Source of the DNA: a virus
Length of the DNA: 27,436 nt
IMG/VR virus record: IMGVR_UViG_3300043409_000026
Coordinates: 1-27,436 of that record
Strand: one strand, 5' to 3'
The position numbers and the translations under genes were made by a program. Below, one piece after another: positions 199 through 7,169 of the stretch (position 1 is its first letter; every line of letters starts with the position of its first letter). The notes under the pieces are model-generated. The model was not told where the DNA came from. It was given only the letters and a program-made list of their open reading frames with translations, and did not search any database.

Positions 199-414
199 AT
201 GACAAACGAAGAACTAGAAAACTTCAAGAACTGCGAAGCCCAAGAGTGGATACGCAGGTTCAACCAAAAGAAATTGACGATTGGCTCAAGCAAAGCGTTG
301 CTCTGGTGGCAGGGAGTGTGCGTGGACTTGGAACGAATCAGAGGAAAGTCAGATACTTTGCTTTTGAGGGACAGAATGACGAGGTTACGAAATGAGGAGA
401 GCAGCAAGAGTTGA
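199..414 (+). CDS. Small conserved phage protein, DUF7696-like
   Basis: This encodes 71 residues from ATG 199. An in-frame TTG at 184 would add five residues, but no good ribosome-binding site supports either start. The pattern CEAQEW near the N-terminus, a Trp pair in the middle, then RIRG and a late Leu/Met helix resembles small alpha-helical phage proteins I recall as DUF7696-like. That match is from memory and tentative, and no function is known. Its last 23 bases overlap the start of the HNH gene at 392. A second frame is also open over nearly the same stretch (177-395) and has tidier stop/start contacts, so the frame choice is not certain. I prefer this frame for its conserved-looking residues. 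Confidence 0.55.
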   Translation: MTNEELENFKNCEAQEWIRRFNQKKLTIGSSKALLWWQGVCVDLERIRGKSDTLLLRDRMTRLRNEESSKS

Positions 415-418
415 TGCA
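392..418 (+). repeat. Upstream copy of nine-codon MRRAARVDA sequence
   Basis: Codons 1-9 of the HNH gene. They encode the same peptide as 856-882 but share only 19 of 27 bases; seven of the nine codons differ, all synonymously. The first 23 bases also encode, in another frame, the C-terminal end of the gene at 199-414. Confidence 0.9.
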
Positions 419-859
419 GATAAATTTTGGTCTTCTGTAGATGTAAAAACAGAAGATGAATGTTGGAATTGGCTTAAAAAACCAAACCAATGGGGATATG
501 GGCGATATAGATTTGATGGTATTCAAACAATGGCGCATAGAGTTGCTTATCGTTTAACTACTGGAGAAAACATAGATGGCAAAGTTGCAATGCACAAATG
601 CGATAACCCTGCTTGTTGCAATCCAAAACATCTTGTAATGGGAACTCATGCAGACAATCAAAAAGACAAGTTTATAAAAAATAGACAAGCCAAAGGAGAA
701 GTTAATGGGTGTTCTTTGTTAACTGAAAAACAAGTTAAAGAAGCAAGAGAAAAATACATACCTAAAGTTGTAACTTACAAAATGCTTGCAAAAGAATACG
801 GAGTTTGCAAAGACACAATGCAAAAAGCTATTCGTAAAATTTACTGGAGACACATATGA
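392..859 (+). CDS. HNH homing-type endonuclease with N-terminus matching the next gene
   Basis: This 155-residue protein has an HNH_3-type core: AHRVAYR near residue 48, then HKCDNPACCNPKHLVMG at 68-84, which holds the HNH residues (H68, N77, H80) and Cys pairs for zinc. A helix-turn-helix-like tail spans about 110-150. It would nick or cut DNA at a specific site and spread its own gene. GAGG at 381-384 precedes the ATG. The first nine residues, MRRAARVDA, are not part of the usual HNH start, which in this family resembles KFW...DECWNW, here from residue 11. They equal the first nine residues of the downstream VRR-NUC protein. The stop overlaps that gene's ATG. Arginine is mostly AGA, unlike neighbouring genes. 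Confidence in the family is high; the insertion history is inferred. Confidence 0.9.
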   Translation: MRRAARVDADKFWSSVDVKTEDECWNWLKKPNQWGYGRYRFDGIQTMAHRVAYRLTTGENIDGKVAMHKCDNPACCNPKHLVMGTHADNQKDKFIKNRQAKGEVNGCSLLTEKQVKEAREKYIPKVVTYKMLAKEYGVCKDTMQKAIRKIYWRHI

Positions 860-882
860 GAAGGGCTGCTCGTGTGGACGCA
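856..882 (+). repeat. Downstream copy of nine-codon MRRAARVDA sequence
   Basis: Codons 1-9 of the VRR-NUC gene, the synonymous counterpart of 392-418. This copy uses GCT, CGT, GTG and GAC where the upstream copy uses GCA, AGA, GTT and GAT, so it looks more like the phage's own codon style. Confidence 0.9.
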
Positions 883-2558: not shown

Positions 2559-2788
2559 ACGATTGGACTCCAGAAGAAGACGAGGCTTTTAATGAAGTTG
2601 AAAAGCAAAGTAATCTTGGTAAGCGGATTTTGAAAGAGATTAGACCACAGCGCACATGGGTAGGGCTGACGGATGAGGAAAGAGAAAGGGCAATACCATT
2701 TAAAGATTTATCTGGAGAATATTACTATGATGATGTTCTTAATATTTTGTTATTTGTGGAAGCCAAACTAAAGCAAAAGAATGAATAA
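2555..2788 (+). CDS. Hypothetical acidic phage protein, 77 residues
   Basis: This protein starts in an ATGA overlap with the previous gene. It is acidic and helical: MNDWTPEEDEAFNEVE, then a central VGLTDEERERA phrase seen in many phage hypotheticals, then YYYDDVLNILLFVEAKLKQKNE. No catalytic motif is visible and no function can be assigned. It overlaps the following Ref-like gene by eight bases, so the two are likely translated together. Confidence 0.65.
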   Translation: MNDWTPEEDEAFNEVEKQSNLGKRILKEIRPQRTWVGLTDEERERAIPFKDLSGEYYYDDVLNILLFVEAKLKQKNE

Positions 2789-3038
2789 CAGACCCAATAA
2801 CAGGGAACGGCTGCACTTGGCAAAGGTAAAAGAAATGCCTTGTGGGGTCTGCAATGCTTCTCCCCCAAGCGATGCACACCACATTGTTCAGCATAATCAA
2901 TACTTATGTATTCCTTTATGCAAGGATTGTCATACAAACAATTTTCTTGGTTTGCATGGTCAGAAACGTAATTGGGCTATTTTTAAGCAAGATGAAATGT
3001 CGGTGCTAAACGAAACCCTGAAAAAGCTGTTAGGATAG
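2781..3038 (+). CDS. Ref-like HNH nuclease (RecA-dependent nuclease family)
   Basis: This is an 85-residue protein. Paired cysteines (C21, C24), DAHHI with H33-H34, then LCKDCH at 46-51 and LGLHG around 57-60 make a zinc-supported HNH-like fold. The layout resembles phage Ref-type nucleases, represented by phage P1 Ref, which cuts DNA at sites bound by RecA filament. Here only the C-terminal nuclease-like part of that family is present, so RecA dependence is not shown. Together with NinB and VRR-NUC it suggests a recombination role. It is the last gene before the terminator at 3065. Confidence 0.7.
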   Translation: MNNRPNNRERLHLAKVKEMPCGVCNASPPSDAHHIVQHNQYLCIPLCKDCHTNNFLGLHGQKRNWAIFKQDEMSVLNETLKKLLG

Positions 3039-6545: not shown

Positions 6546-7169
6546 ATGATTGAAAAAAATACCAAATGGTATGTCTATGAACTCATCAATCCGATAAATG
6601 GAAATGTGTTTTATGTAGGCAAAGGTACTGGTAACAGAATAGACCAGCATGAGCGTGATGCCGCTAAAGGGGTATGCTCAAAAAAATGTAATAAAATCAA
6701 TTACATAATTAAACGTGGTTTCAAAATAAAGAAACAAAAAGTAGCACTATTTTGGGATGAACAGGCTGCTTATGACCATGAAACTGACTTAATTGCTCAA
6801 TATGGTTTATCTAATCTCACAAACATCATGGCTGGCGGTCAAGTTGCATTTGATAGGCGCTTAGTTGAGCGTAAGACTCGAATCAAAGAGCCACAGTTTT
6901 CTTTACCTGATTGGCTTGAAAAGAAAAAGCCAGACCATCCTACATTTAGCCGTTTTGCTGAATGGTTTAAAACTGGGATGTACACAGGTAAGAAAATATC
7001 TGTAAGTAGCGAAGACCCAAGACTTACATATCATTGTGTAATTACAGAAGTTGTCTATAACAAGATTTTGCCAATGTTTTGGGAAAAGATTAAACAAGAC
7101 GATAGAGCCATTGAGATATTTACTCAAAGGATGAAACATCACAATGTGGAGTTGGTATATGGCGGCTAG
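6546..7169 (+). CDS. GIY-YIG homing-type endonuclease
   Basis: This 207-residue protein has a strong ribosome-binding site (GAGGAG at 6532-6537). Residues about 7-90 form a GIY-YIG nuclease domain of the LEM-3-like kind: WYVYELINP, VFYVGKGTGNR with the conserved Gly-Lys-Gly and Arg, a His-Glu pair (HERDAA), and a later Glu-containing helix (ETDLIAQYG). The rest (from about 100) has no domain I recognise and may bind the target DNA. It lies between the polyvalent protein and the small terminase gene, overlapping the latter by 11 bases, a common position for freestanding homing genes. It would cut a site in related phages lacking it; the site is unknown. Confidence 0.85.
   Translation: MIEKNTKWYVYELINPINGNVFYVGKGTGNRIDQHERDAAKGVCSKKCNKINYIIKRGFKIKKQKVALFWDEQAAYDHETDLIAQYGLSNLTNIMAGGQVAFDRRLVERKTRIKEPQFSLPDWLEKKKPDHPTFSRFAEWFKTGMYTGKKISVSSEDPRLTYHCVITEVVYNKILPMFWEKIKQDDRAIEIFTQRMKHHNVELVYGG

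Follow-up and report, generated by a model that had tools for sequence, protein, structure and literature searches.

Homing genes that move without an intron must spare the gene that they invade. Mobile ORFs of this kind are known from fungal mitochondria (Allomyces macrogynus atp6, and Glomus atp6, atp9, cox2 and nad3), where the endonuclease ORF brings with it a divergent version of the coding end that it disrupts, the protein being conserved and the DNA 64–81% identical (PMC3630166). The phage HNH gene described here is similar in that a divergent duplicated coding end comes with an endonuclease ORF and the relict end matches the recipient's relatives, but the fungal cases involve the 3' end, mostly LAGLIDADG enzymes (one is GIY-YIG) and mitochondria, whereas ours involves the 5' end, an HNH enzyme and phages. 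Start capture and an operator-like palindrome further set the phage gene apart, and we claim no kinship between it and the fungal LAGLIDADG or GIY-YIG enzymes. The free-standing seg and mob enzymes of T4 ("intronless homing") are described as cutting at a distance of hundreds to thousands of bp from the place where they are inserted (PMC2988022); like these, our gene belongs to a phage, has no intron and would home with co-conversion of its flanks, but its putative site spans the insertion point and would be rebuilt by an altered replacement end, which we call the rescue. An HNH gene inside a phage coding sequence whose product still works has been described as mobE in Aeh1 nrdA (cited in PMC2988022 and PMC10448857); in the accounts given there the protein is split in two, whereas here the protein remains whole through a second copy of the broken end.

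I-TevI represses its own expression through an operator which resembles its homing site and overlaps the promoter (PMC2988022). In the relatives of our locus a sequence overlapping the putative promoter strongly resembles the putative homing site, the leader being absent from the locus itself, but I-TevI is an intron-encoded GIY-YIG enzyme and the resemblance to this HNH gene comes from sequence alone. In engineered home-and-rescue gene drives the rescue is recoded. HomeR is a synthetic drive of this type which combines a homing nuclease with rescue of the target gene, using CRISPR in Drosophila (PMC7968924); it is engineered and CRISPR-based whereas the phage HNH is natural and protein-guided, but the logic is common to both. 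Our search of the phage literature, with subscription journals mostly outside its coverage, found no account of such an arrangement of HNH gene and replacement start.

We analysed IMG/VR virus record IMGVR_UViG_3300043409_000026, and refer to this whole stretch of 27,436 bases as the window. Direct reading of the sequence confirmed the twin starts reported in the original prediction: ATGAGGAGAGCAGCAAGAGTTGATGCA at 392–418 and ATGAGAAGGGCTGCTCGTGTGGACGCA at 856–882 both translate as MRRAARVDA, with 19/27 bases alike and seven of the nine codons differing, all synonymously. They open an HNH ORF and a VRR-NUC ORF, respectively, with 464 bases from start to start. The features of the locus are as follows:

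184–414, + strand: resident upstream gene (start given earlier as 199), the 3' end of which runs into the opening codons of the native VRR-NUC start.
392–418, + strand: relict native VRR-NUC start, codons 1–9, now the start of the HNH ORF (from comparison with the HNH-free loci L002, L007 and L059).
410–418, + strand: left half of the putative homing site, GTTGATGCA (from a half-site matrix derived from relatives' leaders).
419–859, + strand: HNH coding part, with the HNH_3 domain and a C-terminal helix-turn-helix-like region (stop TGA, 857–859).
856–859, + strand: ATGA overlap between the HNH stop and the rescue start (from the sequence).
856–891, + strand: rescue tract, divergent replacement VRR-NUC codons 1–12 (from comparison with L002).
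856–1122, + strand: target gene, a VRR-NUC / Holliday-resolvase-like PD-(D/E)XK nuclease, resident sequence from about 892.
1119–1520, + strand: NinB-family recombination gene, 3' of the target gene (PF05772, E 1e-21).

The upstream gene is left intact by the HNH insertion, and its stop at 412–414 falls within codons 7–8 of the first copy, which does double as the end of this gene as had been noted. The HNH frame terminates within the ATGA overlap in 16 of 19 HNH loci, and this overlap probably couples the rescue start to HNH translation.

VRR-NUC relatives were gathered by IMG/VR scans with the second gene's protein, removing near-identical loci; each scan lists the best 80 matches, and the full set exceeds 590 VRR-NUC loci. 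The sample of best matches listed comprised 346 loci, of which 327 were HNH-free and 19 had an HNH gene whose end coincides with the VRR-NUC start codon, though 19/346 should not be read as a frequency because the sample was partly seeded with HNH-bearing queries. HNH presence is therefore polymorphic at one conserved site, the codon 8–10 site being the one occupied in 16 loci. In the HNH-free relatives, the gene at 184/199–414 passes directly into VRR-NUC, and the window flank plus codons 1–9 align with 38 of these loci, reaching 99.4% identity across 176 bp in the best case. The 152 bases that lead up to the junction base are identical in the window and L002, and 392–418 is the same in L002, L007 and L059 except at that base (GCA versus GCT). 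Because the HNH-free flanks continue through codons 1–9 at up to 99.4% identity, 392–418 is the native start and the twin-start arrangement is not chance. The original prediction that the upstream copy is ancestral, and that HNH-free relatives would have the upstream gene overlapping VRR-NUC directly with first-copy sequence, is thus borne out, as is the placing of the HNH gene just after codon 9, since the alignment holds to this codon. The duplicated start (relict plus rescue) is present in 16 HNH loci, and we found no true case of a duplicated start upstream of VRR-NUC among the 327 HNH-free loci sampled. The "duplicate starts" returned by a regular expression search of these were mostly the C-terminus of an upstream cytosine methyltransferase, and were rejected.

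Searches with the HNH protein and with its alignment identified 18 further distinct HNH loci in varied phage backgrounds, all directly upstream of VRR-NUC, and a relict native start of 8–10 codons precedes the HNH gene or forms its N-terminus in 16 loci. Relict and flank match the phage's own HNH-free relatives in L083 (93.8% over 177 bp with L124), L086 (98.9% over 177 bp with L010) and L087 (89.5% over 171 bp with L208); no HNH-free flank in our sample aligned for L085, L089, L095 and L098. The left-over native start is the recipient's and the downstream start is foreign, and many phages have the same unit, an HNH ORF plus divergent VRR-NUC codons 1 to about 12, placed after native codon 9.

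The extent of the foreign sequence can be seen in the comparison with L002, the closest HNH-free relative, where 856–891 has 12/36 mismatches, 892–917 has 0/26, and differences are rare beyond. As the identity of the window to L002 stops and resumes at 417/418 and 891/892, these are the left and right breakpoints. When each HNH locus was compared with the HNH-free locus nearest to it in codons 30–84, the six with a VRR-NUC 3' part less than 8% diverged differed by 0.33–0.43 in codons 4–10, compared with averages of 0.05 and 0.07 for HNH-free controls in the same bins. The window and L081 have a nearly common rescue (2/27 bases differ, with Ile12 in both); the upstream gene, relict and VRR-NUC body all differ between them. 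Rescue distance is correlated with HNH distance (Mantel r 0.27, P 0.038; 13 loci), compared with r 0.10 (P 0.24) for relict distance in the same number of loci. It should be noted that the HNH loci are mutually related and P values assuming independence are too small. Rescue starts track the HNH gene and not the recipient, and the earlier suggestion that the HNH gene carries a differently coded replacement start is upheld by this joint movement. The recoding is synonymous in the window as had been claimed, but elsewhere it often is not, with the codon 9 Ala replaced by Gln, Lys, Asn or Glu.

Most relatives have a leader of about 45 bases between the relict and the HNH gene, which has its own start codon. 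An extended –10-like motif, TGnTATnnT, occurs in 11/12 leaders compared with 3% of shuffled leaders, and many leaders form a palindrome with arms like TTGATGC...GCATCAA that contains this motif. The arms resemble codons 7–9 of the native gene (GTTGATGCA or GTTGATGCT), which is the insertion site. In 215/314 HNH-free loci a matrix of leader arms, picked and oriented by eye, gave its best score among about 1110 positions to the codon 7 site, compared with a median rank of 432 for column-permuted matrices. Because the arms were chosen by eye, we added a test with unaligned leader 9-mers, which matched the HNH-free genes best at codon 7 base 2 of 400 positions (mean 7.1/9 versus 5.43, sd 0.25; rank 1 for 10/12 leaders). 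Mean half-site matrix scores were 9.6 for natives, 8.5 for relicts and 3.2 for rescues, and the rescue scored below its relict in 16/16 loci (P 1.5e-5, treating loci as independent). Within 1–1600 of the window the best match is 410–418 (13.2; runner-up 9.4), and the rescue half-site at 874, GTGGACGCA, is weakened to 6.8, though the rescue of L081 nearly equals its relict (11.5 versus 11.9). The proposal that recoding hides the site from the enzyme gains indirect support from a half-site kept in the relict and degraded in every rescue, and a relict with the left half only and a rescue with the right half only fits a target spanning the junction. The likeness between arms and homing site need not mark a binding site and could also stem from descent, the arms being a duplicated target of the kind seen in L086. 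We note that at the start of the L086 leader the native target is repeated in tandem almost exactly (GTTGATGCTAA–GTTGATGCTATAAT), which may be a remnant of the original insertion event.

We consider it highly probable that this is a homing endonuclease gene carrying its own rescue, which travels with an immune, divergent replacement for the 5' end of its target gene; cleavage by the HNH enzyme and immunity of the rescue are what we infer from the sequences. The enzyme would recognise codons 7–10 of the naive gene (half-site RTTGATGCW) and cut near the codon 9/10 junction, after which the HNH gene and rescue would be copied during repair from the genome that carries them; the exchange on the left would fall in codons 1–9 or farther upstream, and that on the right past the divergent tract. 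Insertion would destroy the site twice, as the relict loses the right half and the rescue spells the left half differently in restoring the protein, and the divergence would prevent strand exchange in repair before the rescue has been copied. The promoter-like element within the half-site palindrome of most relatives would probably be an autorepression operator, as in I-TevI. In the window and L081, where the leader is gone, reading of the HNH gene would begin at the native VRR-NUC start, to which the rescue start would be coupled via ATGA. Such a gene would follow a third route, beside introns or inteins and intergenic insertion, by bringing a respelled replacement for the end that it breaks. 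If true, this would give engineered home-and-rescue drives a natural equivalent in which natural targets, rescues and possible resistant alleles are many and open to comparison, and immunity by recoding, the evolution of resistance and the separation of nuclease and rescue (L465, below) become directly testable.

The alternative that survives best is passive co-conversion, in which the phage that donated the HNH gene had a VRR-NUC gene that was naturally divergent, and adjacent codons were carried along in homing with no role in immunity. HNH-free phages with a native VRR-NUC start spelled like the rescue copies do exist (L248, L245, L273 and L180, with the L248 start identical to the L081 rescue core), the fungal parallels have been interpreted as horizontal transfer (PMC3630166), and the rescue divergence is not tuned to the recipient, as shuffling of rescue/relict pairings gave no support for individual tuning (P 0.85). 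We nevertheless regard passive co-conversion as rather unlikely, though possible, since a full replacement start is required anyway and it degrades the leader-derived half-site in all 16 pairs. Furthermore, the relict–rescue mismatch excess centres on codons 6 and 9 (0.81 versus 0.21 at codon 6 base 1, and 0.69 versus 0.23 and 0.34 at codon 9, with an excess at codon 5 as well), and relict–rescue distance is greater than distance to random natives (P 0.001, for loci which are related). The four HNH-free starts spelled like rescues are candidate resistant alleles or rescue donors, and the rescue copy may have its origin in an allele that had diverged naturally, and not in a purpose-made recoding.

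The HNH ORF (392–859) matches HNH_3 (PF13392, E 5.4e-10, above cut-off) and also phage HNH endonuclease families, and the motif residues H68, N77, H80, D88 and N89 are invariant across 18 relatives. I-PpoI and I-HmuI were the top fold matches with a probability of 0.8–0.94, but these are weak (E 0.02, TM 0.26–0.38), and a PDB sequence search with the HNH profile gave zero matches. The sole match in the bacterial genomes searched was distant (Nocardia, 35% identity) and pointed to no host, and relatives in cultured phage records were all below 60% identity. We rejected a group I intron or intein, as an Rfam search of the entire window (E up to 0.1) returned nothing, and hence no group I intron match, and an intein is excluded because HNH and VRR-NUC occupy two distinct frames that overlap. 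The HNH gene is under purifying selection (dN/dS 0.12 versus L081) and coupled to the recombination cassette, which might suggest a domesticated enzyme, co-expressed with VRR-NUC and NinB, that serves the phage and is not selfish. We find this improbable given its patchiness among close relatives (19/346 loci, in a sample partly HNH-seeded), its transfer across divergent backgrounds and its own promoter-like leader. The target VRR-NUC ORF matched no Pfam family at E 0.1, nor did six relatives at E 0.01. The best match to its AlphaFold model (pLDDT 85.5) was VRR_NUC 4qbn (probability 1.00, TM 0.72, E 9e-3), followed by archaeal Hjc Holliday junction resolvases, and the VRR-NUC label given earlier appears valid by this predicted fold. 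The nearest VRR-NUC protein in our search of cultured phage records (75%) is from an uncultured Manatee Spring phage, where the gene is immediately followed by ninB and preceded by a methyltransferase gene and two small genes.

Nine identical residues would also occur twice in one locus if the gene start had been duplicated in tandem and had then drifted silently, but here the relict is essentially that of HNH-free phages, the rescue differs at 12/36 bases while the adjoining 26 are unchanged, and unrelated recipients have one rescue in common; the breakpoints and sister comparison rule this explanation out, and we give it very little credence. HNH genes between phage genes are common, but a free-standing gene with an N-terminus alike by convergence or chance is scarcely credible when HNH N-termini match each recipient's VRR-NUC start down to phage-specific differences (MRRAARVDA versus MRYAARVDAN).

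In the rescue-carrying gene we favour, these N-termini would result from capture of the native start. The window and L081 have no leader, and their HNH ORF continues in frame from the native VRR-NUC start; L089, which belongs to a more distant group, also has HNH fused to a native-like start, MVYKKVDKE. Start capture appears to be a derived minority state (the window, L081 and probably L089) that probably arose at least twice, because L089 is fused while its relatives L102 and L103 keep their own starts. The suggestion that the HNH gene captured the native start signal is therefore correct for the window but does not extend to most relatives, which have the promoter-like leader and their own start codon. 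Gene-start annotation near phage HNH genes may be confusing, as the HNH protein may bear its neighbour's N-terminus. We lean slightly towards a still broader reading, that this is a natural phage home-and-rescue drive in which the HNH gene always moves with a recoded, cleavage-immune start and represses itself via the palindromic half-site, with repeated leader loss and start capture.

Positions 1–180 of the window hold the C-terminal end of a second HNH-type protein, the stop of which overlaps ATGA before the next gene. In L176 the first letters of a related HNH in this position are ATGAATTTT; they resemble the native start of the gene that follows it (ATGAACTTT), and start capture may recur at this place.

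We also looked for HNH remnants upstream of HNH-free genes, and found none that were convincing in the MR-type set and one clear scar in the MVYK-type set. This is L465 (about 780–1220), which has no HNH gene but retains 21 bases of the HNH 3' end beside a rescue-like VRR-NUC start, and it is likely that the nuclease was lost and the rescue kept. Because L465 keeps this scar beside a rescue-like start, rescue and nuclease can apparently separate. The HNH gene of L465 is replaced by an unrelated small ORF containing cysteines. Three HNH-free MVYK-type loci (L434, L435 and L439) have the CGT spelling of HNH-bearing relatives (MVYKRVDNCQ) and not the common AAAAGGGTAGAT.

Elsewhere in the window, a small Cys/His-rich ORF at 2781–3038 (phrog_1588; no Pfam match) has an HNH-like zinc-binding look by eye. 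A GIY-YIG homing-endonuclease-like gene (PF22945) at 6546–7169 lies just 5' of the terminase genes, and its stop codon falls within the opening codons of the small gene that comes next (ATGGCGGCTAG).
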